From Kordia aestuariivivens (GTDB lineage Bacteria > Bacteroidota > Bacteroidia > Flavobacteriales > Flavobacteriaceae): 64,000 nt of DNA. The notes under the pieces were generated by a model. The model worked only from the letters and a program-made list of their open reading frames with translations. It was not told the DNA's origin and made no database searches. Positions 25,674 to 39,014 of the stretch are shown one piece after another (position 1 is the first letter of the stretch; every line of letters begins with the position of its first letter). The DNA is taken from positions 1 to 64,000 of the forward strand of contig NZ_JACGWS010000010.1 of NCBI RefSeq assembly GCF_014397005.1, written 5' to 3'. Both the position numbers and the translations under genes were made by a program.

Positions 25674-26134
25674 TATAATTTTATCTTTATATCTTCAGTT
25701 TTGTCAACTTCATAATTGTATGAAAAGCCAAACGTACTATAAGTAATTGTTCCTTTGTATTGTACTTTCATTTTTTGATTGACAATACTATTTAGAATGC
25801 CTCCCAAAAGACCATTTTTATTTTTTTCAAACACTTCTTTTGTGGGAATGATCACTTTTAACGGGATTGTAAAATTTTCTTTTGCAGGAACTTTAAAAGA
25901 TTCAGAACTCACGTTTGCAACCGAAACATCATTTACAAACACTTCAATTCCTTTGCATTCTAAACTTCCTCCAACATCATTTTGATTCATAAAATAAGCA
26001 TCTGCCGTTAGCGTGATGGTTTCCAAAGTTGCATCTTCAACCACAACATTATCAACCTTTACGAATAATGGTTTTTCTTTGACTTTACAATTTATGAAAA
26101 GTAAGATGATTGGAATTATAAAAAGTTTTTTCAT
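25673..26134 (-). CDS. LEA14-like (WHy domain) lipoprotein
   Basis: 153 residues with a lipoprotein signal (LLFINCKVKEK, Cys at about 16). The remainder is beta-rich, with alternating NNVGG-like and KVPAKENFTIPLKVIIP segments resembling the WHy domain of LEA14 proteins, associated with desiccation or stress tolerance in other organisms. It begins the ribD unit. Function unknown. Confidence 0.65.
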   Translation of the reverse strand: MKKLFIIPIILLFINCKVKEKPLFVKVDNVVVEDATLETITLTADAYFMNQNDVGGSLECKGIEVFVNDVSVANVSSESFKVPAKENFTIPLKVIIPTKEVFEKNKNGLLGGILNSIVNQKMKVQYKGTITYSTFGFSYNYEVDKTEDIKIKL

Positions 26135-26384
26135 AATATAATTTGCTTTTTTCTGTAATGAATCATGCTGAAAATTTCGTCAGTTTGAGTGTTTTCATGT
26201 AATGAAAATGTATCGAAAATAAGAAACTTTCTAGCTGTATAGTTTCTCTTAAAAATCACTCGAAATGACGTTTTTATGATAATTGATCTTGAACCAACAA
26301 CAAACAACTAGCAACAAACAACCAAATTTAGTATCTTCACAGCATCGCAAAACTACATAAATTCTATTTGAAGCGCACACAAAA

Positions 26385-26960
26385 ATGAGTCAAGAATTTT
26401 ACCAAGATCAAGTTTTTAAAAAGATCGATTATACACAACAAACTTTTCCGAAAGGAGAATATGACAATTGCACGTTTCTGGATTGCAAGTTTGAAGGCGT
26501 TTATTTGACAACAATGTCGTTTTTAGAATGTACGTTTGATACTTGCGATATGACAAATGCAAAAGTGAAAAGCACATCATTTACCGAAGTTGATTTTGTG
26601 AATTGTAAATTATTAGGAATCGATTTTAGTCAGTGTAATGATTTCATGTTTTCGGCAACGTTTCAAGACTGTATGTTGCAATTGGCTTCGTTTGCCGAAT
26701 TAAAAATTAAGCAAACAACCTTCCGAATGTCTAATTTGCGAGAAGTAGATTTTACGGGAACCGATTTAGAAAACTCCGTTTTTGATGATTGCGATTTGCA
26801 ACAAGCTATTTTTGAAGAAACCAATTTGGCAAAAGTAGACTTTAGTTCTGCTTACAATTACACCATTGATCCAAGTTTGAATCAACTTAAAAAGGCAACA
26901 TTTTCACGTGTAGAAATTCACGGTTTATTAAAAAAATACGATATAAAAATTATATCCTAA
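26385..26960 (+). CDS. Pentapeptide-repeat protein, Qnr/MfpA-like
   Basis: 191 residues built almost wholly of pentapeptide repeats A(D/N)LXX, here with many F/L/C centres (FLDCKFEGV, SFLECTFDTCDMTNAKV, DFTGTDLENSVFDDCDL). Such proteins fold into a right-handed square helix; Qnr and MfpA members mimic DNA and protect gyrase. Size and the slight break near residue 90 resemble Qnr proteins, but gyrase protection is not shown. It overlaps the acetyltransferase by 1 nt (TAATG). TATCTTCA at about 26332-26339 may be a -7 box. Confidence 0.85.
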   Translation: MSQEFYQDQVFKKIDYTQQTFPKGEYDNCTFLDCKFEGVYLTTMSFLECTFDTCDMTNAKVKSTSFTEVDFVNCKLLGIDFSQCNDFMFSATFQDCMLQLASFAELKIKQTTFRMSNLREVDFTGTDLENSVFDDCDLQQAIFEETNLAKVDFSSAYNYTIDPSLNQLKKATFSRVEIHGLLKKYDIKIIS

Positions 26961-27436
26961 TGATTATTAGAGAAATACAACAAAAAGATAACAAAGATGT
27001 AGCAATTTTTATAAGAGCTGCTTTCCCAGAATTTAACATGGCAATGGTTGGAACTGCGTATGAAGATCCAGAAACAGATGCCATGTTTGAAGCATATCAA
27101 GGCGATCGTGAAGTATATTATGTGATTGAAGTTGATGGAGAAGTTGTTGGCGGTGCAGGAATTAAGCTATTGCGTGACAATACAGACAATGTTTGTGAAT
27201 TTCAGAAAATGTATTTTTTGACGAAAACCAGAGGAAAAGGATACGGAAAATTGCTATTTTCGAAATGTTTAGAGGCTGCAAAAGATTTTGGTTACGATCA
27301 ATGTTATTTGGAATCTTCGCCATTATTTGAGGCAGCAATTCATATCTATGAATCGTTTGGTTTCAGACAGTTGGATAAGCCTTTAGGGAATACAGGTCAT
27401 TATTCCTGCGATATATGGATGTTGAAGGAGTTGTAA
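26960..27436 (+). CDS. GNAT family N-acetyltransferase
   Basis: 158 residues. Acetyl-CoA loop KTRGKGYGKLLFSKC (about 89-103) and the C-terminal AIHIYESFGFRQLDKPLG are typical. It is translated directly after the pentapeptide-repeat gene. Substrate unknown; small-molecule or peptide acetylation is usual for this size. Confidence 0.9.
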   Translation: MIIREIQQKDNKDVAIFIRAAFPEFNMAMVGTAYEDPETDAMFEAYQGDREVYYVIEVDGEVVGGAGIKLLRDNTDNVCEFQKMYFLTKTRGKGYGKLLFSKCLEAAKDFGYDQCYLESSPLFEAAIHIYESFGFRQLDKPLGNTGHYSCDIWMLKEL

Positions 27437-27439
27437 CTT

Positions 27440-27471
27440 TTAGGTATTAGGTATTAGGTATTAGGTATTAG
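27440..27471 (+). repeat. Short tandem repeat (TTAGGTA)n
   Basis: Four perfect copies of a 7-bp unit plus a partial fifth, directly after the acetyltransferase stop codon. The rest of the 310-nt gap to prmC is AT-rich; I see no other feature except A/T runs. Confidence 0.9.
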
Positions 27472-27746
27472 TATTTGTGATTTTTTATCCAAAACCCAAA
27501 TTTAAGTTTAAGAGTTGAAAGGCTTATCAGTTTAGAAATCTTTTATGCAGTATAGTAATACAAACACGTTAAAAATTTTTGAAACCTTGGAGAAAATTTA
27601 GTGTTTGAATTACGGTTTTATTGCTTCCTGAAGAAGCAATAAAAATACCTCATAAAAGTGTCATTTCTTTTGGTTCATTTTCTTTGGACAAGCAAAGAAA
27701 AGAACAATAAAAATAGTTTTTTTGATAAAAAATTTAAAATAAAAAT

Positions 27747-28625
27747 TTGAAACTAAAAGATATACAAGAAATATTTCACAAGGAATTGGATGAAATTTAC
27801 GGAAAAGATGAAGTCAATAGCTTTTTCTTCATGTTAACGGAAGCCTTTTTTGGGTTGGAACGTTTTTCATTGGCAATAGATCCTGAAATTGTAATCACAA
27901 AAACGCAGGAAACTCTAATATTTGCAGCGTTAAGCGAATTAAAACTCGAAAAACCAATTCAACATATTCTTGGAAAAACTCACTTTTTTGGATTGGAATT
28001 TAAAGTAAATGAACACACTTTGATTCCACGACCAGAAACGGAAGAATTGGTACAATGGATGTTGGATGACCTCAAAGTTGAAAAATTACCCAACAAAATA
28101 ATTCAAATTCTAGACATCGGAACAGGAAGCGGTTGCATTCCGATTGCACTCAAAAAGAATCTACCAAATGCTGTAATTTCCGCGCTAGATATTTCTGAAA
28201 ACGCTTTGAAAGTCGCGAAAGAAAACGCAAAAAGTAACGAAGTCGAAATTCAATTTGTGCAAGCAAATGTGTTGACTTTAGAAAAATTGAATTTGTTTGA
28301 AGAAGAAAATATACTTTTTGACATTATTATTTCGAATCCGCCGTATGTGCGAAATTTGGAAAAAGAAGCCATGCACAAGAATGTTTTGGAATACGAGCCA
28401 GATTCAGCCTTATTTGTAGACGATCATGATGCACTCGTTTTTTACGACAAAATAGCGAATCTCGCGAAAGCGCATTTAAAACCATCTGGAAAATTATACT
28501 TTGAAATCAATCAGTATTTAGGCAAAGAAATGATCGATCTACTACAAAAGAAACAATTTAAAAACATCGAATTGCGCAAAGATATGTTCGGCGTAGACCG
28601 AATGACGAAGTGTATTCTAAATTAA
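27747..28625 (+). CDS. prmC: Release factor glutamine methyltransferase PrmC
   Basis: A 292-residue enzyme that methylates the GGQ glutamine of release factors. Class I SAM site ILDIGTGSGCIPIAL (about 120-134) and the catalytic motif IISNPPYVRNLEKEAM (about 193-208) are intact; the N-terminal helical domain ends with KPIQHILGKTHFFGLEF. Its start is TTG at 27747, which aligns with the usual N-terminus of relatives (MKLKDIQ-). Its stop lies about 40 nt before the 8-bp tandem array. Confidence 0.95.
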   Translation: MKLKDIQEIFHKELDEIYGKDEVNSFFFMLTEAFFGLERFSLAIDPEIVITKTQETLIFAALSELKLEKPIQHILGKTHFFGLEFKVNEHTLIPRPETEELVQWMLDDLKVEKLPNKIIQILDIGTGSGCIPIALKKNLPNAVISALDISENALKVAKENAKSNEVEIQFVQANVLTLEKLNLFEEENILFDIIISNPPYVRNLEKEAMHKNVLEYEPDSALFVDDHDALVFYDKIANLAKAHLKPSGKLYFEINQYLGKEMIDLLQKKQFKNIELRKDMFGVDRMTKCILN

Positions 28626-28667
28626 AAATGTTAAATGCTACATTATAAATGTAAAAGTTTAAATTTA

Positions 28668-28785
28668 ACATACCAACATACCAACATACCAACATACCAA
28701 CATACCAACATACCAACATACCAACATACCAACATACCAACATACCAACATACCAACATACCAACATACCAACATACCAACATAC
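28668..28785 (+). repeat. Perfect 8-bp tandem array (ACATACCA)n
   Basis: About 118 bp of uninterrupted 8-bp units, close to 15 copies, without a single mismatch. It lies between prmC and the arginine leader region. An 8-bp unit shifts frame on every copy change, but no gene spans it, so any effect would be on transcription, RNA or DNA structure. Frames read through it (runs of CWYVGML or NIPTYQHT) are repeat artefacts. Confidence 0.97.
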
Positions 28786-28787
28786 TT

Positions 28788-28811
28788 GTCACATCGAGCG
28801 CAGTCGAGATG
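28788..28811. repeat. REP-like element, TCGAGCGCAGTCGAGA
   Basis: Follows the 8-bp array directly. Same family as 23079-23103 in the opposite orientation (GTCACATCGAGCGCAGTCGA). Confidence 0.85.
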
Positions 28812-28929
28812 AACATCGAAAACTAAGATATCCATAATTTCATAGTCGTTTTTTTGAGATATTCATAAAAATTCTCTGAAGCTGCATTTTATTGTTTTAC
28901 GTACAATTATAATTTGTATGTTTACAGTA

Positions 28930-28995
28930 ATGAATACTCAAAATAAAAAATACAATAGAAAACCCATGTTGCGCTTGCGCAAACGCCGCCGCTAA
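28930..28995 (+). CDS. Arginine-rich leader peptide of the arg operon
   Basis: A 21-codon reading frame, ATG at 28930 to TAA at 28993. Its last nine residues, from a second ATG at 28966, read MLRLRKRRR; six Arg codons in total, five of them CGC, which is strikingly GC-rich against the AT-rich surroundings. It is followed by the arginine biosynthesis operon 235 nt downstream. This is what a translation-dependent attenuator would look like: ribosomes stall on Arg codons when charged Arg-tRNA is scarce. Either ATG could be used. Confidence 0.72.
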   Translation: MNTQNKKYNRKPMLRLRKRRR

Positions 28996-29100
28996 TTCTA
29001 CTAATTAGCTCAACTCTATTGTTTCATTTTATTTATCTTTTTTGTGTATCATTTAACATTCATATCATCTTATCAACATATCGTTATTCCTCAGAATAAC
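28952..29100 (+). promoter_or_regulatory. Putative arginine attenuator structures
   Basis: Around and after the Arg codons: a perfect 7-bp hairpin GCTAATT-ctact-AATTAGC (28991-29009) that contains the leader stop codon; an outer 7-bp helix ACAATAG/CTATTGT (28952-28958 with 29016-29022) that encloses the whole Arg run; and a third hairpin GTTATTC-ctca-GAATAAC (29083-29100). A ribosome paused on the CGC codons would break the outer helix and cover the first hairpin. No clear U-tract terminator follows the third hairpin; a T6 run lies at about 29119-29124. Function is inferred. Confidence 0.5.
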
Positions 29101-29230
29101 AATATTCCTGCACGCCGCTTTTTTCCGCGCCGCCCGTAAGGGTACATTTCTATTTTTGAACTTAGGTGCGTCCGGTTCTTCATTTTCAAAACATCATATC
29201 ATTTAAGTTTAATCATTTTAAATCAGCACA

Positions 29231-29848
29231 ATGGAAATTGTTATAGCTAACAATTCGCATAGTATATATGCAGATACTATTTGCGAAACTATTTTAAAAG
29301 CTGCCCAAGTAAGAGGAACAGGAATTGCCAAACGAAAACCAGCATATATTATTTCCAAAATGGAACAAGGCAATGCTGTCATTGCTTTAGATGGAGAAAA
29401 ATTTGTTGGATTTTGCTATATAGAAGCATGGAGTCATGGAAAATTTGTTGCCAATTCTGGACTTATTGTTCATCCTGATTATAGAGGAAAAGGAATCGCG
29501 AAAATGATCAAGAAGAAGGTTTTTGAACATTCGAGAGTTAAGTTTCCCAACGCGAAAGTATTTAGTATCACCACCGGATTAGCTGTGATGAAACTCAATA
29601 GCGATCTTGGATATAAACCTGTTACATTTTCTGAACTCACAGACGATCAATCCTTTTGGAGTGGCTGTCAAACCTGCAAAAACTTTGATGTATTGAAACG
29701 TACAGAACAAAAAATGTGTTTGTGTACAGGCATGTTATACGATCCAAAAACAAGTGATGTGACTAAAAAAGTAAAAATAAAAGAACAGGTTTTCAACAGA
29801 TTGAAAAACATTAAACAAGCCTTGTTTTTAAAAAAAGATAAAAAATGA
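29231..29848 (+). CDS. Acyltransferase (GNAT), probable N-acylglutamate synthase of arginine synthesis
   Basis: 205 residues, GNAT fold, with acyl-CoA loop VHPDYRGKGIAKMIKKK (about 79-95) and a later Cys-containing segment FWSGCQTCKNFD (about 142-153) seen in the family that replaces ArgA in Bacteroidota. Placed first in the arginine operon, it most likely makes N-succinyl- or N-acetylglutamate from glutamate. It overlaps argG by 4 nt (ATGA). Confidence 0.82.
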   Translation: MEIVIANNSHSIYADTICETILKAAQVRGTGIAKRKPAYIISKMEQGNAVIALDGEKFVGFCYIEAWSHGKFVANSGLIVHPDYRGKGIAKMIKKKVFEHSRVKFPNAKVFSITTGLAVMKLNSDLGYKPVTFSELTDDQSFWSGCQTCKNFDVLKRTEQKMCLCTGMLYDPKTSDVTKKVKIKEQVFNRLKNIKQALFLKKDKK

Positions 29849-31041
29849 AGACTTCAAAAAAATTAGTACTTGCCTACAGTGGCGGATTAGATACTTCGTA
29901 TTGCGCGGTACATTTAACCAAAGACAAACACTTTGAAGTACATGCGGTAAGTGTAAATACAGGTGGTTTCTCGCCAAATGAAATCAAAGATATAGAAACG
30001 AATGCTTATAAAATGGGCGTTTCAACCTATAAAAATATTGACGCAGTGACTACGTTCTATCAAAAAGTTGTCAAATATTTGATTTTCGGAAACGTCTTAA
30101 AAAATAACACGTATCCTTTATCTGTAAGTGCAGAACGTATTGTACAAGCCATTGAAATCATTGAATATGCGAAAAGTATCAATGCCAACTATATTGCGCA
30201 TGGAAGTACGGGCGCAGGAAATGATCAGGTGCGTTTTGATATGATTTTTCAAACATTAGCACCAGAAATTGAAATCATCACACCGATACGAGATCAAAAA
30301 TTAGCGCGTCAAGAAGAAATCGATTATTTAAAAGCAAATAATGTGGATGCTTCTTGGGAAAAATCAAAATACTCTGTCAACAAAGGACTTTGGGGAACAA
30401 GTGTTGGCGGTGAAGAAACCTTAACTTCTGAAAAAGCATTGCCCGAAGAAGCATATCCTTCTCAATTGCAAAAAGAAGGCGAAGAAAAAGTACAATTGAC
30501 TTTTCTGAAAGGAGAATTAATCGCGATCAATCAACAACAAAACACACCTGAAATAAACATTGAAATCTTAAATAATCTCGCTGCTGCATACGCAATCGGA
30601 AGAGACATTCATGTGGGCGATACGATTGTTGGAATTAAGGGAAGAGTTGGTTTTGAAGCGGCTGCGGCAATCATTACGATAAAAGCACATCATTTATTAG
30701 AGAAACATACATTGACGAAATGGCAACTGCAACACAAAGAATATTTGTCAAACTTTTATGGAATGCATTTGCATGAAGGTCAATATTTAGATCCTGTCAT
30801 GCGAGACATGGAAGCTTTTCTACAAAATAGTCAGGCAAAAGTTTCGGGCGATGTTTTTATCACCTTGAAACCGTATCATTTTACACTTGACGGAATTCAT
30901 TCAAAACACGATTTAATGAATGCAAAATTTGGCAGCTATGGCGAAATGAACTCAGGTTGGACAGCTGATGAAGCAAAAGGATTTATCAAAATTATCGGAA
31001 ATCAAAACAAAATTTACCAACAAGTAAACTCAGAAGCATGA
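29845..31041 (+). CDS. argG: Argininosuccinate synthase
   Basis: A 398-residue ligase joining citrulline and aspartate with ATP. The N-terminal P-loop-like LAYSGGLDTSYCAVHL (about 8-23) is the N-type ATP pyrophosphatase motif; HGSTGAGNDQVRFDMIF (about 119-135) and the KGLWGTSVGGEE region are also conserved. It overlaps its neighbours by 4 nt on each side. Confidence 0.97.
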   Translation: MKTSKKLVLAYSGGLDTSYCAVHLTKDKHFEVHAVSVNTGGFSPNEIKDIETNAYKMGVSTYKNIDAVTTFYQKVVKYLIFGNVLKNNTYPLSVSAERIVQAIEIIEYAKSINANYIAHGSTGAGNDQVRFDMIFQTLAPEIEIITPIRDQKLARQEEIDYLKANNVDASWEKSKYSVNKGLWGTSVGGEETLTSEKALPEEAYPSQLQKEGEEKVQLTFLKGELIAINQQQNTPEINIEILNNLAAAYAIGRDIHVGDTIVGIKGRVGFEAAAAIITIKAHHLLEKHTLTKWQLQHKEYLSNFYGMHLHEGQYLDPVMRDMEAFLQNSQAKVSGDVFITLKPYHFTLDGIHSKHDLMNAKFGSYGEMNSGWTADEAKGFIKIIGNQNKIYQQVNSEA

Positions 31042-32015
31042 TACAAGCAGGAATAATTGGCGGCGCAGGATATACGGCGGGAGAATTACTAAGAATCTTA
31101 CTATATCATCCGAAAGTAGAAATCAATTTTGTGTATAGCACTTCAAATGCTGGCAACAAAATTAGTAGTGTACATCAAGATTTAGTTGGAACGACAGAAA
31201 TGTTATTTACAAATACAATTGATACAACAGTTGACGTATTGTTTTTGTGTTTGGGGCATGGGAATTCTAAAAAATTCTTAGCAGAAAATACTTTTTCAGA
31301 AAACACAAAAATTATTGATCTAAGCAATGATTTTAGATTGCAAAAAGATGCACTATTTGAAGATAAAACTTTTATATACGGTTTGCCTGAATTACAAAAA
31401 GATGCGATCAAAAAAGCACAAAACATCGCCAATCCAGGTTGTTTTGCTACCGCGATTCAACTCGCTATGTTGCCTTTAGCACAACATGGATTATTAGCAA
31501 CTGATGTGCATATAAATGCAGTCACAGGCGCAACTGGCGCAGGAACTTCCTTGTCAAAAACGACACATTTTACGTGGAGAGACAATAATTTTTCGCATTA
31601 CAAACCTTTTACACATCAGCATTTAGGAGAAATTCATCAAACGGTAACGCAATTGCAAGAAGGTTTCACTTCAGAAATTAATTTCATGCCAAATAGGGGA
31701 AACTTTAGCAGAGGAATTTTCGCCACAGCGTATACAAAATTTGAAGGAAATTTAGAAGAAGCCATCAAACTCTACAAAGATTTTTATGCCGATGCGAAAT
31801 TCACTTTTGTGAGTGACGAAAACATACATTTAAAACAAGTGGTAAACACCAACAAATGCTTGCTACATCTTCACAAACACGGAGATAAATTATTAATTAC
31901 GAGTATCATAGACAATCTTTTAAAAGGCGCTTCGGGCCAGGCAATTCAGAATATGAATCTGATGTTTGATTTTGAAGAAACCGAAGGATTACAATTAAAA
32001 GCTAACTTTTTTTAA
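31038..32015 (+). CDS. argC: N-acyl-gamma-glutamyl-phosphate reductase
   Basis: 325 residues. Rossmann start IIGGAGYTAGELLRIL (about 7-22) and catalytic Cys in NPGCFATAIQLAMLP (about 132-146), the ArgC active-site signature. Reduces N-acylglutamyl phosphate to the semialdehyde with NADPH. Overlaps argG by 4 nt; 12 nt before argD. Confidence 0.96.
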   Translation: MIQAGIIGGAGYTAGELLRILLYHPKVEINFVYSTSNAGNKISSVHQDLVGTTEMLFTNTIDTTVDVLFLCLGHGNSKKFLAENTFSENTKIIDLSNDFRLQKDALFEDKTFIYGLPELQKDAIKKAQNIANPGCFATAIQLAMLPLAQHGLLATDVHINAVTGATGAGTSLSKTTHFTWRDNNFSHYKPFTHQHLGEIHQTVTQLQEGFTSEINFMPNRGNFSRGIFATAYTKFEGNLEEAIKLYKDFYADAKFTFVSDENIHLKQVVNTNKCLLHLHKHGDKLLITSIIDNLLKGASGQAIQNMNLMFDFEETEGLQLKANFF

Positions 32016-32027
32016 AACCGAAAAATC

Positions 32028-33155
32028 ATGAGTTTATTTAATGTATATCCACTATTCGACATTACACCCACTTTTGCAAAAGATGTGTATGTGTATGATG
32101 AAAATAACACGAAATATTTGGATCTTTATGGCGGCCACGCTGTGATTTCTATAGGACATTCGCATCCAAAGTATGTAGCTGCAATATCTAATCAAGTTAA
32201 AAAATTAGGATTTTATAGCAATGCGATTCAAAATCCGTTACAAACACAATTAGCAGACAAATTAACAAGTTTATCTGGCAGTAAAGGATATCAATTGTTT
32301 TTGTGTAATTCTGGCGCAGAAGCCAATGAAAATGCATTAAAACTTGCATCATTCCATACACATAAAGCAGAAATATTGGCGTTCAAAAATTCTTTTCACG
32401 GTCGAACTTCTGCCGCAGTAGCCGCTACAGATAATGCTAAAATCGTTTCACCATTAAACGCGCAACAAAAAGTAAACTTTGTGTCATTGGGCGATTTGGA
32501 AGCCGTAGAAACCATTCTAAAACAAAATAAAACCTGCGCTGTGATTATCGAATGTATTCAAGGAGTTGGCGGATTGGACGAAAGTACGACTGAATTTTAC
32601 CAAGGACTTGCCATACTTTGTAAAACCTACAATACCGTGCTAATTGCTGATGAGGTGCAATCGGGTTTTGGGAGAACGGGCGATTTCTTTTCCTTTCAAA
32701 AACATCATATTACGCCAGATATTATTTCCATGGCAAAAGGAATGGGCAACGGATTTCCTATTGGCGGAATTCTGATTCATCCATCCATCAAAGCATCTTT
32801 TGGTTTGCTTGGAACTACGTTTGGCGGAAATCATTTGGCGTGTAGTGCTTCTTTGGCGGTATTAGAAGTCATAGAGGAAGAAAACTTAATTCAGAATGCA
32901 ACTGAGATTTCAGCATATTTCATAGAAAAAGCAAGCGAAATACCTGAAGTTAAAAAAGTAAAAGGTCGCGGTTTAATGCTTGGATTGGAATTTGATTTCC
33001 CAGTTGCTGAATTGCGAAAAAAGCTCATTCACAAGCATCACATATTCACTGGAAGTGCTAAAAATCCGAATCTGATTAGAATTCTTCCACCATTAACAGT
33101 CGCTAAAAAGCATCTCGATTTGTTTTTTGATGCGTTGAAAGAAGCATTAAAATGA
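32028..33155 (+). CDS. argD: N-acylornithine aminotransferase
   Basis: 375 residues, class III PLP aminotransferase. Seen: LCNSGAEANENALKLA (about 92-107), the carboxylate-binding LIADEVQSGFGRTG (about 204-217) and the PLP lysine in SMAKGMGNGFPIGG (about 233-246). Converts N-acylglutamate semialdehyde to N-acylornithine with glutamate. Followed by a 179-nt repeat-bearing gap before argF'. Confidence 0.95.
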   Translation: MSLFNVYPLFDITPTFAKDVYVYDENNTKYLDLYGGHAVISIGHSHPKYVAAISNQVKKLGFYSNAIQNPLQTQLADKLTSLSGSKGYQLFLCNSGAEANENALKLASFHTHKAEILAFKNSFHGRTSAAVAATDNAKIVSPLNAQQKVNFVSLGDLEAVETILKQNKTCAVIIECIQGVGGLDESTTEFYQGLAILCKTYNTVLIADEVQSGFGRTGDFFSFQKHHITPDIISMAKGMGNGFPIGGILIHPSIKASFGLLGTTFGGNHLACSASLAVLEVIEEENLIQNATEISAYFIEKASEIPEVKKVKGRGLMLGLEFDFPVAELRKKLIHKHHIFTGSAKNPNLIRILPPLTVAKKHLDLFFDALKEALK

Positions 33156-33188
33156 AGAAGTCTTGATTTTATCTATCGGTTTGAGTGT

Positions 33189-33330
33189 GTCACATCGAGC
33201 GCAGTCGAGATGCAATAGAGAACAAGAAAAAATGAACAAGAGATGAAAATTATTCTATTTATAAATAACGAATTAATTTTTATCAGCTAAAAAAGTTTAA
33301 TTAAAAAAGATTCCCACTTTCGTGGGAAAT
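33189..33330. repeat. Two dispersed repeats inside the arg operon
   Basis: The argD-argF' gap (33156-33334) holds a TCGAGCGCAGTCGAGA element (33189-33212) and an ATTCCCACTTTCGTGGGAAA hairpin (33308-33330), the second of the CCTGCC/GGAATGAC REP type. They interrupt an otherwise tightly packed operon and could form stable hairpins in the mRNA, giving scope for processing or internal attenuation. Confidence 0.75.
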
Positions 33331-33334
33331 AACT

Positions 33335-34273
33335 ATGAAAAAGTACACCAACATAGATGATATTGAATCGTTTCCCGAAATCATTCAAGAAGCGATTCAA
33401 CTCAAAGAAAATCCTTTCGCTTATGAACATTTAGGAACACATAAAACCTTGATTATGTTATTCTTCAATGCGAGTTTGCGTACGCGATTGAGTACTGAAA
33501 AAGCAGCAAAAAATCTTGGAATGCAGGTCATGATTTTAAATGTGAATGATGCTTGGAATTTAGAATTTGAAGATGGAAGTATCATGAATTTCAATACTAC
33601 CGAACATATCAAAGAAGCGGCGCAAGTGATTTCGCAATACGCGGATATCATTGCAGTACGCGCATTTCCAAGTTTGGTAGACAAAGAAAAAGATGCTTCG
33701 GAATGGATTCTGAATAGTTTTGTGAAACATGCCACAGTTCCTATCATAAACATGGAAAGCGCAACCATGCATCCGTTGCAAGCGTTGGCAGATGCGATTA
33801 CTATTGAAGAATTGAAAAAAACAAAAAAACCTAAAGTGGTTTTGTCGTGGGCACCACATCCAAAAGCGTTGCCACAAGCAGTCGCCAATTCGTTTGTAAA
33901 AATGATGCAACATATTGATGTTGATTTCTACATCACACATCCGAAAGGATATGAATTGAATCCAGCAATTACGTTAGATACACCAATTCTGTACGATCAA
34001 AATGAAGCGTTAGAAGGTGCTGATTTTGTGTATGCGAAAAATTGGAGTAGCTATTCCGAGTATGGCAAGATTTTAAATCAAGATTCCAATTGGATGATGA
34101 CACAAGAGAAACTGAAAACAGCAAAATTCATGCATTGTTTGCCTGTACGACGAAATGTTGTGGTAACTGACGCAGTTTTGGATAGTTCAAACTCTGTCGT
34201 GATTCAACAAGCAAATAATCGAACATTCGCAGCACAAATTGTATTGAAGAAAATTTTAGAAAATTTATACTGA
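33335..34273 (+). CDS. argF': N-acylornithine carbamoyltransferase (succinylornithine type)
   Basis: 312 residues, carbamoyltransferase fold. Carbamoyl phosphate site NASLRTRLSTEKAAK (about 45-59), and HCLPVRRNVVVTDAV near 287-301. It belongs to the branch acting on acylated ornithine (Bacteroides type) rather than free ornithine: the second-domain blocks NMESATMHPLQALADAITIE and APHPKALPQAV are those of that branch. At the position of the Pro that marks succinyl specificity in the B. fragilis enzyme (EAIPV) this protein has EAAQV (Q97). Substrate acyl group thus undecided. Confidence 0.9.
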   Translation: MKKYTNIDDIESFPEIIQEAIQLKENPFAYEHLGTHKTLIMLFFNASLRTRLSTEKAAKNLGMQVMILNVNDAWNLEFEDGSIMNFNTTEHIKEAAQVISQYADIIAVRAFPSLVDKEKDASEWILNSFVKHATVPIINMESATMHPLQALADAITIEELKKTKKPKVVLSWAPHPKALPQAVANSFVKMMQHIDVDFYITHPKGYELNPAITLDTPILYDQNEALEGADFVYAKNWSSYSEYGKILNQDSNWMMTQEKLKTAKFMHCLPVRRNVVVTDAVLDSSNSVVIQQANNRTFAAQIVLKKILENLY

Positions 34274-35049
34274 TGAAAACACTAAAAATCATAAAAATAG
34301 GAGGGAATATCATTGATGATGAAGTGGCTTTGCATAAATTTCTAGAAGGTTTTGCAAAACTAGCTTCACCAAAATTATTAGTTCATGGTGGTGGAAAATC
34401 AGCGACTAAATTAGCAAAGGAAATGCACATTGACGTTCAAATGAATGAAGGAAGACGAATTACGGATGCAAAAACCTTGGACATTATTACCATGATGTAC
34501 GCTGGAAAGATCAATAAAATGATTGTTGCAAAATTACAAGCAAATAATTGCAATTCCTTAGGTTTTTCAGGAGCTGACGGAAATAGTATCGTTTCTGTAA
34601 AGCGTCCAATTCAAGAAATCGATTATGGATTTGTAGGTGATGTAAAAAAGGTAAACACAACTATTTTGAAAGTCTTGCTTGAAAATAAGATTACGCCAGT
34701 TTTTTGCGCCATTACACACGATGAAAACGGACAATTATTAAATACAAACGCAGACACCATTGCTTCCGAATTGGCAGTTGCTTTCGCGAACGATTTTAAA
34801 ACAGAATTGTATTACTGTTTTGAAAAAAATGGCGTATTGAGAAACATTCAAGATGATGATTCGGTCATTGAAAACATTACTACTGAAACCTATCAAACCT
34901 TACTAAATGAAGGAATTATTGCAGATGGCATGTTGCCCAAACTCAACAATTGTTTTTACGCACTGCAACATCAAGTACAAAAAGTATGTATTGGACAACC
35001 AACGATGCTTTTTCAAAAAAATATAAAACACACAACCATTCAACAATGA
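34273..35049 (+). CDS. argB: N-acylglutamate kinase
   Basis: 258 residues, amino-acid kinase family. Start IIKIGGNIIDDE (about 6-17), HGGGKSATKLAKE (about 38-50) and NTNADTIASELAVAF (about 155-169). Phosphorylates N-acylglutamate. Overlaps argF' by 1 nt (TGATG) and argE by 4 nt. Confidence 0.95.
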   Translation: MKTLKIIKIGGNIIDDEVALHKFLEGFAKLASPKLLVHGGGKSATKLAKEMHIDVQMNEGRRITDAKTLDIITMMYAGKINKMIVAKLQANNCNSLGFSGADGNSIVSVKRPIQEIDYGFVGDVKKVNTTILKVLLENKITPVFCAITHDENGQLLNTNADTIASELAVAFANDFKTELYYCFEKNGVLRNIQDDDSVIENITTETYQTLLNEGIIADGMLPKLNNCFYALQHQVQKVCIGQPTMLFQKNIKHTTIQQ

Positions 35050-36110
35050 ACACGCAAGAATTAACAACTACGGCAATTGCATTGCTCAAGAATCTGATTG
35101 AAACACCATCGTTTTCCTCAGAAGAACAGGATACTGCCAAACTTATAGAAAATTGGTTTCAACACTATGAAATTCATTTTAAAAGAACACAAAACAATAT
35201 TTGGGCGACGAATTTATTTTATGATGAAAACAAACCGACATTGCTATTAAATTCGCATCATGATACCGTAAAACCTAACAATGGATATACAAAAGATCCT
35301 TTTAAAGCCATTGTGGAAGATGGAAAATTATACGGATTGGGAAGTAATGATGCTGGCGGTTGTTTGGTGTCATTACTTGCTACGTTTGCATATTTCTACA
35401 AACAGAAAGATTTAAAATATAATTTGGTGATTGTCGCTTCCGCAGAAGAAGAAAGTAGCGGCGAAAACGGCTTGAATAGTATGCTGTCTGTCATTCCAAA
35501 AATTGACGTAGCCATTGTAGGCGAACCAACGTTAATGCAATTGGCAGTCGCCGAAAAAGGATTGTTAGTCTTTGATGCAATTGTAAAAGGCACGCCAAGT
35601 CACGCAGCACATCCAAATACGGATAACGCTATTTACAACACGATTGACGTTTTAAAATGGTTTCAAGATTACCGATTTGAAAAAACATCTGCTGTTTTGG
35701 GCGATGTAAAAATGACGGTAACACAAATTAACGCTGGAAAACAACACAATGCCGTTCCAGCGGACGTAAAATTAGTAGTGGATGTTCGTGTGAATGATGC
35801 GTATTCTAATCAGGAAATTGTTGCTATTCTTCAAAAAGAAGCACCTTGTGAACGTATCATTCCAAGAAGTTTAAAACTGAATTCGTCTTCCATTCCAATG
35901 GAACATCCATTAGTACAAGCGGGAATTACTTTGGGAAGAAAAACCTATGGCTCTCCAACTTTATCAGATCAGGCAGTATTGTCGTGTCCATCCTTAAAAT
36001 TAGGTCCTGGCGACAGTACGCGTTCGCATACAGCGGATGAGTTTATTTATTTGCGCGAGATTGAAGAAGGCGTTCAGATTTATATTAAATTATTAAATAA
36101 CGTACTATGA
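35046..36110 (+). CDS. argE: M20 deacylase of arginine synthesis (ArgE-like)
   Basis: 354 residues, zinc-dependent amidohydrolase of the M20 family. Metal ligands are visible: His in NSHHDTVKPN, Asp in GSNDAGG, Glu pair in ASAEEESSG, Glu/Asp in GEPT, and His in RSHTADEF near the end. In the acylornithine-carbamoyl pathway it removes the acyl group from N-acylcitrulline. The true start is ATG at 35046 (ATGA overlap with argB); an upstream reading from 34950 lies wholly inside argB. Confidence 0.92.
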   Translation: MNTQELTTTAIALLKNLIETPSFSSEEQDTAKLIENWFQHYEIHFKRTQNNIWATNLFYDENKPTLLLNSHHDTVKPNNGYTKDPFKAIVEDGKLYGLGSNDAGGCLVSLLATFAYFYKQKDLKYNLVIVASAEEESSGENGLNSMLSVIPKIDVAIVGEPTLMQLAVAEKGLLVFDAIVKGTPSHAAHPNTDNAIYNTIDVLKWFQDYRFEKTSAVLGDVKMTVTQINAGKQHNAVPADVKLVVDVRVNDAYSNQEIVAILQKEAPCERIIPRSLKLNSSSIPMEHPLVQAGITLGRKTYGSPTLSDQAVLSCPSLKLGPGDSTRSHTADEFIYLREIEEGVQIYIKLLNNVL

Positions 36111-36114
36111 TGAT

Positions 36115-36183
36115 GGATTCCTGCCTTCACAGGAATGACAAAATGAACTAAATAAAAATAGATTCCTGCCTACGTAGGAATGA
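36115..36183. repeat. Tandem pair of CCTGCC..GGAATGAC REP elements
   Basis: Two copies, GATTCCTGCCTTCACAGGAA (from 36115) and GATTCCTGCCTACGTAGGAA (from 36161), each a TTCCTG/CAGGAA or TTCCTNCC/TAGGAA hairpin followed by TGA. They fill the 88-nt gap between argE and argH. Another copy lies at 43523-43546, and degenerate ones at 6004-6018 and 33308-33330. Confidence 0.85.
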
Positions 36184-36198
36184 AAAAAAGTAACGCAA

Positions 36199-37473
36199 AT
36201 GAAACTCTGGGATAAAGGAATTAGTATCGATAAAAAAATAGAAACATTTACAGTTGGAAACGATCGAGAGATTGACATGCATATTGCAACGTATGATATT
36301 CAAGCTTCGTTGGCGCATGCTAAAATGCTGCAAAAAATACAGATCATTTCTGCGGAAGAATTGCAACAGCTTACCGAAGGTTTGGAAGCGTTACAATCGC
36401 AATTGGATGCTAAAACTTTTGTGATTGAACCGCAGTTTGAAGATGTGCATTCAAAAATTGAATTTGAACTCACTAAAAAGTATGGTGATGTTGGGAAAAA
36501 GATTCACACCGCACGATCTAGAAACGATCAGGTTTTGGTGGCGTTGCAGTTATTTTACAAAGAGCATTTGAAATTGGTCATGACAAATACCAAAACGTTT
36601 TTTGATACACTTTTGCAATTGGCAGAAACACACAAAGAAGCCGTATTGCCAGGCTACACACATTTGCAAGTTGCGATGCCTTCTTCGTTTGGATTGTGGT
36701 TTTCGGCGTATGGCGAATTGTTAATTGACGATATGTACGTATTAGAAGCGGCACTTAAAACCGTAGATCAAAATCCACTCGGTTCTGCCGCAGGTTATGG
36801 AAGTTCATTTCCAACTGATCGAGATTTTACCACACAAGAATTAGGATTTAAAACTTTAAAATATAATGTTGTTGCTGCGCAAATGAGTCGTGGGAAAAGC
36901 GAACGAACGATTGCGATGGCATTGGGAAGTTTGTGCAATACACTATCGCGATTTGCGATGGATATTTGTTTGTATATGAGTCAGAATTTTAATTTTATTT
37001 CCTTTCCGGATGAATTAACGACTGGAAGTAGTATTATGCCACATAAAAAGAATCCTGATGTTTTTGAATTGATTCGCGGGAAATGCAATAAAATTCAGGC
37101 GTTGTATTCAGAAGTACTTTTAATTACGAACAATTTACCAAGTGGTTATCATCGAGATTTTCAATTATTAAAAGAGAATATCATCGGTGCTTTTATGGAT
37201 GTGAATGATATTTTGGAAATATTCAATCATTCCATTCAACAAATTAAGGTAAAAGAGATTGATCTCACCGATGAAAAATATCAATATCTATTTACGGTAG
37301 ACACGATTAATAATTTAGTGATGGAAGGCGTTTCTTTTAGAGATGCGTATCAAAGAATAGCTAGCCAAGTTCAAGACGGAACGTACACGCCAGACATGTC
37401 AAAAGAACACACGCATGTTGGAAGTATTCATCATTTGTCTTTGGATAAGATTCGCGATAAGTTTCCTGAATGA
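36199..37473 (+). CDS. argH: Argininosuccinate lyase
   Basis: 424 residues, fumarase/aspartase superfamily. The superfamily signature GSSIMPHKKNPDVFE (about 276-290) is intact, as is TARSRNDQVLVALQLF (about 105-120). Splits argininosuccinate to arginine and fumarate, the last step of the pathway. End of the arginine operon; no clear terminator follows. Confidence 0.97.
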   Translation: MKLWDKGISIDKKIETFTVGNDREIDMHIATYDIQASLAHAKMLQKIQIISAEELQQLTEGLEALQSQLDAKTFVIEPQFEDVHSKIEFELTKKYGDVGKKIHTARSRNDQVLVALQLFYKEHLKLVMTNTKTFFDTLLQLAETHKEAVLPGYTHLQVAMPSSFGLWFSAYGELLIDDMYVLEAALKTVDQNPLGSAAGYGSSFPTDRDFTTQELGFKTLKYNVVAAQMSRGKSERTIAMALGSLCNTLSRFAMDICLYMSQNFNFISFPDELTTGSSIMPHKKNPDVFELIRGKCNKIQALYSEVLLITNNLPSGYHRDFQLLKENIIGAFMDVNDILEIFNHSIQQIKVKEIDLTDEKYQYLFTVDTINNLVMEGVSFRDAYQRIASQVQDGTYTPDMSKEHTHVGSIHHLSLDKIRDKFPE

Positions 37474-37652
37474 TTCCTTTTTACACATTTTTAGTTATTT
37501 AATGTGTTTAAATTCAGTAGTTGAAAGGCAATTATTTTCTATCAGGTAGTTCAGCTTGGTTTCTAAAATCAGGCTATACTGCGCTAAAAAAAACGTGTGC
37601 ACCAATTTACCTTTGGAGTGTATTTAATTAACAACTCTAAAAACAATTTATT

Positions 37653-38099
37653 ATGAGCACATCACTAAAAGTAAAATTAGACATTTCAAAAAACATGAAA
37701 GATTCAAGCGGAAATCCTATTAAGGTTTACACCCATGATTATTATTACAAAACGCAAGCGGATAAAGACAAAGGTAGTTCGACGGCATATCGCGAATGTG
37801 TATCTGGTCGTACGGTTTGTGGTAGTCCTATAAATTATAATACAGCGAGTCCTGTTTGTAGCTGTGAAACTAAAGGTTCTGGTTCATGCGCCTTTGATGA
37901 CAGTAAATGGGCACTTTATTTCTGGGACAATGATTCGGCAATTACTTCAGGGAATATTGGGTATGTACATTTCAAAGAAACCTGTGGGAGTAGCAAATGG
38001 CATGTATCGGGTTCAGGTTCTGTTGGGAAATATTTGGTATCGGTTGAAATGCAAAGCAATACTGAAGCAAAAGTTACGATACAACTATCGGCATCTTAA
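37653..38099 (+). CDS. Cys-rich hypothetical protein
   Basis: 148 residues I do not recognise. No signal peptide; six Cys at RECV, TVCG, PVCSC, GSCAF and KETCG, spaced like a small disulfide or metal cluster in the middle third. The ends are Ser/Lys/Thr-rich and beta-like. It has a Bacteroidota -7 box upstream (TACCTTTG, 37608-37615) and its own terminator, so it is probably a real single-gene unit. Composition is unlike the neighbouring biosynthetic genes. Confidence 0.7.
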   Translation: MSTSLKVKLDISKNMKDSSGNPIKVYTHDYYYKTQADKDKGSSTAYRECVSGRTVCGSPINYNTASPVCSCETKGSGSCAFDDSKWALYFWDNDSAITSGNIGYVHFKETCGSSKWHVSGSGSVGKYLVSVEMQSNTEAKVTIQLSAS

Positions 38100-38128
38100 T
38101 CAACTCTCTGTAATTTCAACACATATTT

Positions 38129-38177
38129 AAAACCTATGTATAGCTAGTTTTCTAGTTGTACATAGGTTTTGTTTTTT
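38129..38177 (+). terminator. Terminator of the Cys-rich gene
   Basis: AAAACCTATGTA pairs with TACATAGGTTTT (12 bp), with a further CTAG/CTAG stem inside, and GTTTTTTG follows. Confidence 0.85.
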
Positions 38178-38274
38178 GAAGCACTAGCTATACGCAATTC
38201 TGTATCAAATTGAAATTTAGGATATATTTTGCGCTGAAATGTAAAATAAGTACTTTCGTTGGCTGTAAATGACG

Positions 38275-38430
38275 AATAAGAAGAATCAAGAGCCAAGAAT
38301 ATAGAATATAGAACCAAGAGCATAGATTCAAGATTCAAGATGAAGCATAGAGAAAATTTACTACAAGCAAAAAAATAATCTAAAAGTCTAACAAAGTCCA
38401 AGGAGTCCAAGAAGTCTAATTAAGTCTAGG
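38275..38430. repeat. Degenerate short-word repeats
   Basis: The gap before the LOG gene (336 nt in all) ends in near-repeats: AATAT/AGA words with AAGATTCAAGAT, then TCTAA-AGTCTAACAAAGTCCAA words. The second kind recurs at 43548-43620, 47440-47490 and 48978-49015. No coding frame is seen. Confidence 0.55.
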
Positions 38431-38435
38431 AAAAA

Positions 38436-39014
38436 ATGAAAAGTATCGCCGTCTATTGTGGAAGTAGTTTAGGAAATGACCCAAAAATTGTTGCAGATGC
38501 TACACAGTTAGGAGAAACATTAGCCAAGCAAAACATTACGCTCGTATATGGCGGATCTCAAATAGGAATTATGGGAACTGTCGCAAATGCGGTTTTAGAA
38601 AACAACGGAAAAGTCATTGGCGTGATTCCTGAGTTTTTAAAGTGTAAAGAAATTGTACATGACGATGTGGAAGAAATGTACACTACACAAACCATGGTGG
38701 AACGCAAAATGAAAATGATTGATATGGCAGAAGGTTTTGTTGCACTTCCTGGCGGATTTGGTACGTTGGAAGAACTTTTTGAAGTCATTACTGCGTTGCA
38801 ATTAAAACAAATAGAACATCCAGTTGCGGTTTTGAATAGCAATGGATATTACGATGAACTCATCGCTATGATGAAAACGATGATCAAAAAAGGATTGCTC
38901 AAAGAGAAAAACTTCGATATGTTGATTATTGAAACGGACATTCCAACCTTATTAGCTCGCATGCGAAACTTTGTTCCGAATGTTACACCAAAATGGATTA
39001 CAGCTAAAAATTAG
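38436..39014 (+). CDS. LOG-family (TIGR00730) Rossmann-fold protein
   Basis: 192 residues with the two family motifs: YGGSQIGIMGTVANAVL (about 39-55) and RKMKMIDMAEGFVALPGGFG followed by TLEE. The PGGxGTxxE motif marks nucleoside-5'-monophosphate phosphoribohydrolases (LOG, cytokinin-activating type in plants). In bacteria most act on AMP-like nucleotides; the real substrate is unknown. Confidence 0.9.
   Translation: MKSIAVYCGSSLGNDPKIVADATQLGETLAKQNITLVYGGSQIGIMGTVANAVLENNGKVIGVIPEFLKCKEIVHDDVEEMYTTQTMVERKMKMIDMAEGFVALPGGFGTLEELFEVITALQLKQIEHPVAVLNSNGYYDELIAMMKTMIKKGLLKEKNFDMLIIETDIPTLLARMRNFVPNVTPKWITAKN

Follow-up and report, generated by a model that had tools for sequence, protein, structure and literature searches.

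The 64,000-nucleotide stretch of DNA analyzed here, referred to as the window, contains an arginine biosynthesis operon of Kordia aestuariivivens, and the region ahead of that operon very probably controls it through Arg codons in leader peptides whose translation responds to the charging of Arg-tRNA, whatever the output of that control may be. To judge from the comparison of related loci, two short frames, uORF1 and uORF2, are under selection as coding sequence, each ending in a run of Arg codons. The same comparison indicates that conserved RNA structure wraps each frame, with a helix (P1) around the Arg run of uORF1 and helix A around the uORF2 terminus; hairpin B comes next. An earlier note on this DNA had read the region as an arginine attenuator. 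That reading holds in its core: the uORF1 frame is conserved, the outer helix, P1, covaries in relatives, and the repressor ArgR was found in none of 60 genomes. The second frame, the A/B module, and the predicted near-leaderless start of uORF1 were not part of that note. Listed in Table 1 are the features of the region.

Table 1 Features of the arginine leader and operon (positions in the window)
Feature	Position	Strand	Description and basis
Putative -7 promoter box	28917..28924	+	TATGTTTA; compared with the Bacteroidota sigma-A consensus TAnnTTTG, from which the last base differs
uORF1, first Arg leader, predicted near-leaderless	28930..28995	+	MNTQNKKYNRKPMLRLRKRRR-stop
P1, 5' arm	28941..28959 (28941-28948, 28952-28959)	+	Inside uORF1, ahead of the main Arg run; fold and covariation
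Stop-codon hairpin	28991..29009	+	GCTAATT (28991-28997) with AATTAGC (29003-29009), 7 bp; minimum-energy fold
P1, 3' arm	29015..29034 (29015-29022, 29027-29034)	+	Fold and covariation
U-rich tract	29027..29043	+	Candidate site of termination or pausing; overlaps and follows the P1 3' arm, just before the uORF2 start
uORF2, second Arg leader	29044..29139	+	GTG start; C-terminal ARRFFPRRP-stop
Helix D	29083..29100	+	GTTATTC/GAATAAC, inside uORF2; fold and segment-pair scan
Helix A	29131..29144	+	CGCCC-GTAA-GGGTA, loop with the uORF2 stop codon; comparison of loci
Hairpin B	29158..29178	+	GAAC-TTA-GG-TGCGT-CC-G-GTTC; nearly invariant loop UGnGU, bulge, and closing pairs
GNAT acetyltransferase, first gene of the arg operon	29231..29848	+	Pfam
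argG, argC, argD, carbamoyltransferase (argF-like), argB, M20 peptidase (argE-like), argH	29845..37473	+	Pfam family and order

The first leader peptide

uORF1 comprises 21 codons, six of which specify Arg (five CGC and one AGA), and ends in three consecutive Arg residues ahead of a TAA codon at 28993-28995. A re-reading of the sequence thus bears out the earlier description of this frame, including its six Arg codons, five of them CGC, and its Arg-Arg-Arg-stop terminus. An upstream ATG at 28918 lies in the same open frame; the start was placed at ATG 28930 because this position agrees with the promoter box and with the relatives. The spacing between the uORF1 stop codon and the GNAT gene is 235 bases.

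The DNA preceding the GNAT gene was compared at 105 loci, four of which lie outside the family. These consisted of 80 named loci, which ranked best among 547 confirmed relatives, and 30 loci from genomes, the latter drawn from the 33 genomes that gave a match among 60 relatives, the genome of the window included; four duplicates and one locus with a short flank were removed. The set was picked by the similarity of one protein, and because its loci share kinship, the locus counts do not represent independent events. A locus was scored as positive for uORF1 if it contained an ATG frame, 12-45 codons long and with three or more Arg codons among its final seven, that ended 420-200 bases before the GNAT gene. 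Such frames occur at 80 of the 105 loci as compared to 10 of 3150 dinucleotide shuffles. Conservation of the Arg-rich frame in relatives, by which it had been suggested the attenuator be judged, is therefore observed. One of the 80 passing loci, L101, is probably a chance frame. Of the 25 loci that fail, 14 are outgroups in the tree. The 11 others were inspected: five have a weaker ATG frame, L096 has a weaker frame with a GTG start, L057 retains a remnant, and four have none.

Arg accounts for 304 of the 640 residues in the last eight codons of the 80 frames. The codons of the AGA/AGG and CGN types exchange at these sites, with 12 and 23 occurrences, respectively, at position -4 and 9 and 42 at position -5, which suggests that selection acts on the amino acid. 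The share of CGC among Arg codons is 213/401 in the uORF1 frames versus 5/59 in ten genes of the window. In a quick tree of the loci, the uORF1 label clusters (10 changes versus a shuffled mean of 23), and three loci fall outside the main uORF1 group (L096, L103, and L101, the last of them probably false). This quick tree does not separate a single gain of uORF1 from several, or gain from loss.

Promoter element and start of uORF1

On the basis of the box motif, transcription is predicted to start at ∼28929, one base before the uORF1 ATG. In 68 of the 80 loci, the uORF1 ATG follows the end of a TAnnTTT[GA] box by 3-7 bases, and in 44 of these the spacing is exactly four bases. The background frequency of this motif in the flanks of the loci is 0.005 per position. 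Eleven of the remaining loci have no visible box, and one has a box positioned farther away. As given in the main text of a published transcript study, the sigma-A -7 box sits at -12 to -5 from the transcription start, and leaderless transcripts make up 5.5% of the 890 mRNAs examined (PMC9723704). From the spacing of the box and its published position, the uORF1 ATG would therefore be located at, or 1-3 bases past, the transcription start. In nearly all of the 68 boxed loci uORF1 is thus predicted to be near-leaderless, with a sequence motif rather than mapped ends as the basis.

Two other elements were noted by eye in the neighboring DNA. Just 5' of the arg promoter region, at 28670-28786, there is a short direct-repeat array with a unit of ∼8 bases, ACCAACAT. 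At 28789-28812 is CATCGAGCGCAGTCGAGATG, which is palindrome-like and resembles an interspersed repeat.

Helix P1 and the U-rich tract

Minimum-energy folding of the 300 nucleotides starting at 28931 yielded a z-score of -3.1, and none of 200 shuffles equaled it. The outer helix that the earlier note had placed around the Arg run is present in the minimum-energy fold, albeit with a length of 8 bp rather than the 7 claimed. Its core is formed by ACAATAGA at 28952-28959 and TCTATTGT at 29015-29022, and an outer extension pairs 28941-28948 with 29027-29034. The stem is rich in A and U. As can be seen across 79 loci, the arms flank the Arg run: the 5' arm extends, by median, from nucleotide 11 to 34, the first Arg codon is at nucleotide 49, and the 3' arm lies 21-44 nucleotides past the uORF1 stop codon.

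The pairing in P1 was evaluated for 80 loci as duplexes between the early uORF1 codons and the stretch 8-62 bases past the uORF1 stop codon. The mean energy was -11.7 kcal/mol with a locus's own partner as opposed to -8.3 kcal/mol with crossed partners, and none of 2000 permutations equaled this result. Within the 8 Kordia loci, 21 of 40,320 permutations do as well. In a structure-free scan of segment pairs (78 loci, ∼1770 pairs), P1 ranked first with a z-score of -5.3. Covariation in relatives, the other check that had been put forward, is thus found for the outer helix. The same scan of 78 loci revealed no covarying alternative pairing for either P1 or hairpin B.

Behind P1, the richest 18 bases contain on average 13 T across the loci, versus 10.8 in shuffled sequences. 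A clear terminator hairpin with a U-tract had been named as the missing link of the attenuator. The U-rich tract behind P1 provides part of that link, whereas a promoter/terminator consensus scan called no terminator on the + strand. It is quite conceivable that P1 is a terminator, but we stop short of calling this probable. The 7-bp hairpin that contains the uORF1 stop codon, likewise described in the earlier note, exists in the fold, but its covariation is weak, with a borderline z-score of -3.4 among ∼1770 comparisons. The "Arg hairpin" has a z-score of -3.2 among the same number of comparisons in the scan, and neither of these two hairpins is significant alone.

The second leader peptide

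When the sequence is read upstream from the CGCCC arm of helix A, the uORF2 frame stays open for a median of 40 codons versus 13 and 11 codons in the other two frames (101 loci). Codon 29 before CGCCC is a start codon in 65 of 97 loci (TTG in 39, ATG in 14, and GTG in 12), whereas the adjoining codons are start codons in only 10 and 3 loci. Likewise, 94 of 101 loci have a start codon within codons 26-34, versus 9 of 101 for codons 11-19. There is no ATG in the uORF2 of 64 of the 101 loci. The frame terminates in Arg-Pro-stop in 79 of 101 loci, and its stop codon lies in a hairpin loop of variable sequence. As judged by eye, lineages differ much in the residues of the peptide, apart from Arg and the terminal Pro. 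Helix D, located within uORF2, ranked third in the segment-pair scan of 78 loci, after P1 and hairpin B, with a z-score of -4.7.

Outgroups such as L097-L100 and L079 have the uORF2-type leader alone. In other families, Arg-bearing frames precede the GNAT gene, for example, in G038 (MNKTTKHINTLAPRFFRRPLWVLN) and in L107 (MNLRRRRPVRR). The other-family relatives G044 and G057 display weak Arg frames only, and no Arg-bearing frame was found before the GNAT gene in L109 and L110.

The A/B hairpin module

The conserved form of helix A is CGCCC/GGGUG. Helix A and hairpin B together contain 12 base pairs, seven of which are altered on both sides, and on each of five measures the count was 0 of 500 shuffles. 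Hairpin B alone, against 500 shuffles, beat all on three measures and was matched by 1 shuffle on another and by 67 on further pair types. It ranked second in the segment-pair scan (78 loci) with a z-score of -5.1.

A model of the module gave one strong match in the genome of the window, namely the arg leader itself at 84 bits, and the next match had an E-value of 0.23. With the model of B alone, the next-best match after the arg leader had an E-value of 0.012. Seven of the weak matches to A/B or B in this genome were inspected, all of which sit within open frames of 269-900 codons and were dismissed as noise.

The module follows the operon closely. Among 37 genomes of the family, it was found in 26 of the 26 with argC and in none of the 11 without argC. 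Of the 26 module-bearing genomes, 22 gave rows to the model, and the independent ones are G005, G011, G024, and, weakly, G027. The G027 match (E-value of 0.004) lies directly before the operon. At this locus (L167; G027:C2:476700-479300), hairpin B consists of a plain stem that lacks the invariant loop and leads into a U-rich stretch. The module also occurs in two more independent genomes of the family, G192 and G223, where it is positioned ∼1.8 kb before argC on the same strand. Overall, it precedes the operon in 28 of the 31 argC-bearing family genomes examined. A class-wide search of 198 genomes gave four matches: the genome of the window, G192, G223, and a weak match in G081. Both G081 and G047, which contains another weak match, are without a match for argC. 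The module is absent from eight argC-bearing genomes of other families. Within the genus, three of ten other genomes (G002, G006, and G010), which count among the 11 without argC, gave matches to none of GNAT, argC, and the A/B module; in these, the operon and its leader seem to have been lost together.

Two additional roles for these elements were considered and not adopted. That hairpin B serves generally as an intrinsic terminator is at odds with the outgroups L097-L101, in which no U-tract follows B. An antiterminator suggested by RNAalifold, in which CGCC at the end of uORF2 pairs with GGUG in B, displays no covariation, and two of its pairs are disrupted, each in a single sequence (L077 and L096). 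Note that the loop region of B at 29164-29173, AGGUGnGUCC, resembles, with one extra base, AGGUGAUCC, which we take to be the complement of the 16S rRNA 3' end. This likeness may be a coincidence.

The operon, ArgR, and genomes without the leader

The placement of the leader ahead of an arginine biosynthesis operon, as previously proposed, is upheld by the Pfam families and the order of the downstream genes, which run from GNAT and argG to argH. After argH, at 37653-38099, there is a frame of 148 amino acids with several Cys residues and no Pfam match at an E-value of 1e-5.

A search for ArgR (PF01316) found no match in any of the 60 genomes, that of the window included; the same search was positive in 9 of 14 controls, among them Bacteroides. 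In five further family genomes there was a single marginal match to an ArgR domain, at 26.9 bits in a 312-codon frame of G223, a genome that also carries the A/B module.

Three genomes of another genus of the family (G123, G159, and G252 of g47) contain GNAT, argG, and argC. In these, neither a match to the A/B model nor an A or B motif was found, the flank contained no frame passing the Arg test, and ArgR was not found either. At least one genus therefore manages without the leader, which limits the spread of the system, not the case for the locus in the window. In G123 (L184 1411-1497), a TACTTTTG box is located five bases before a 28-codon ATG frame with two CGG Arg codons. This frame, which would be near-leaderless, lies upstream of GNAT-argG-argC at a locus without the A/B module.

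Proposed mechanism and alternatives

In the mechanism that we propose, uORF1 would be translated from a 5'-terminal or near-terminal AUG once it is transcribed. With ample Arg-tRNA, the ribosome would clear uORF1, P1 would close, and the U-rich tract would end or pause transcription. Closed P1 would also hide the start of uORF2, which is located at the end of that tract. With Arg-tRNA scarce, the ribosome would stall on the Arg run of uORF1, and because this run lies in the loop of P1, the stalled ribosome would keep the helix from closing and transcription would continue. Given that the scan revealed no covarying competing pairing, the stalled ribosome itself is proposed as the block. uORF2 and the A/B module may then provide a second check, in which a ribosome stalled at the last Arg codons would hold helix A open. 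In its fullest form, this would be a two-stage arginine sensor that replaces ArgR in Flavobacteriaceae: the ribosome stalled on near-leaderless uORF1 would sit in the loop of a terminator helix and act as the antiterminator, and uORF2 would follow, with its stop codon in the loop of a new RNA module (A/B) whose invariant hairpin loop would be recognized by a factor. Taken as one joint claim, this is speculative and rather unlikely to hold throughout.

The same two leaders could instead sense Arg-tRNA with Rho access or the translation of uORF2 and GNAT as the output, rather than intrinsic termination. As part of this joint claim, A and B would be a switch or a protein site between uORF2 and GNAT. 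Such an output would agree with the negative + strand terminator scan and with a hairpin B that has no U-tract in the outgroups, and the layout also suits it, for P1 finishes just ahead of the uORF2 start and the uORF2 stop codon is inside helix A. The U-rich tract that lies behind P1 across the loci, and the plain stem and U-rich stretch of B in G027, argue against it. We regard this output as a serious contender that is nevertheless a little doubtful.

It has also to be considered that one of the two leaders encodes an arrest peptide of the TnaC/SpeFL kind. Free arginine or ornithine would bind in the ribosome and stall it at the stop codon, such that the signal would be high arginine rather than scarce Arg-tRNA. 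A C-terminal Pro before the stop codon is reminiscent of TnaC, and the Arg-Pro-stop tail of uORF2 is widespread among the loci. The variability of the remaining residues does not favor such a peptide, however, and the presence of several Arg codons, set in different contexts, suits tRNA sensing better, so that arrest is improbable. Direct sensing of arginine by A/B, as an aptamer or a protein-binding site to which the frames are secondary, might account for the nearly invariant UGnGU loop with its bulge and closing pairs, and for a single strong match in the genome that lies ahead of the arg operon and has no Rfam match at E-values up to 5. Yet it leaves unexplained why both Arg-rich frames are independently conserved as coding sequence, and we consider it very improbable. 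Finally, that the region is a product of chance, or encodes an ordinary small protein with no part in control, is scarcely credible: short Arg-rich frames can indeed occur randomly, L101 being a likely case, but the excess of loci over shuffles, the covariation, and the lack of the module in genomes without argC all stand against it.

If Arg-codon leader-peptide control, the reading preferred here, is true, it answers how the many Flavobacteriaceae without detectable ArgR regulate arginine synthesis, and arginine joins the amino acids whose own operon is under such control. It would also mean that tandem leaders, the first translated from an almost bare 5' end, operate in a group whose translation does not depend on Shine-Dalgarno pairing. 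The A/B module is, in addition, an RNA element without an Rfam match at E-values up to 5.

Comparison with known systems

In the attenuators of Escherichia coli (trp, his, leu, thr, and ilv), a leader peptide rich in codons for the end product is surrounded by RNA helices. The arg leader resembles them in its codons for the amino acid of the pathway, its helices, and its position before a biosynthetic operon. It differs in the amino acid concerned, the tandem arrangement, the predicted near-leaderless first leader, and the phylum, and in that it has no clear terminator/antiterminator pair.

Leaders tied to arginine have been described elsewhere. According to the report on rbfL of Staphylococcus aureus, the Arg codons of this leader peptide register a shortage of arginine through pausing of the ribosome (PMC13009471). 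The arg leader is similar in that an Arg-codon leader peptide would sense arginine shortage. Unlike the arg leader, however, rbfL, as described there, blocks the ribosome-binding site of a biofilm regulator, and shortage lowers expression; the sequences are unrelated (PMC13009471). The speF leader of Salmonella reportedly likewise links leader control to arginine, but it governs a polyamine gene rather than an arg operon (PMC6386406). For Flavobacterium psychrophilum, the authors report, in the main text, hints of attenuation by leader peptides ahead of operons for amino-acid biosynthesis, and they name structured 5' leaders upstream of pheA, hisG, and others; no arg leader is among those named in the main text, in contrast to the locus described here (PMC9723704). 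Subscription papers and supplements (such as Table S7 of PMC9723704) aside, none of the open papers that came up in a literature search was found to describe a leader peptide in front of a bacterial arg operon.

A search of Rfam with 26000-38500 of the window, at E-values up to 5, showed that the arg leader matches neither Bacteroid-trp (RF01692) nor the T-box. The only three matches in this interval were rejected, all being far below the gathering scores and from families without bearing here. The genome of the window does contain a Bacteroid-trp match, at G000:C1:665344-665465, with a score of 52.7 bits against a cut-off of 49, and leader-peptide control is therefore at home in this organism. 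The two leaders are alike in belonging to Bacteroidota and in occurring in the same genome, and trp leaders of relatives share with the arg leader a frame of end-product codons, mostly with a helix around them. Six trp leaders of relatives each contain a frame with three consecutive Trp codons and a plain hairpin/U-tract terminator, and in five of them a helix surrounds the Trp codons. Whereas these trp leaders have one frame, the arg leader has two, together with a P1 helix that enters the U-rich tract and the A/B module.
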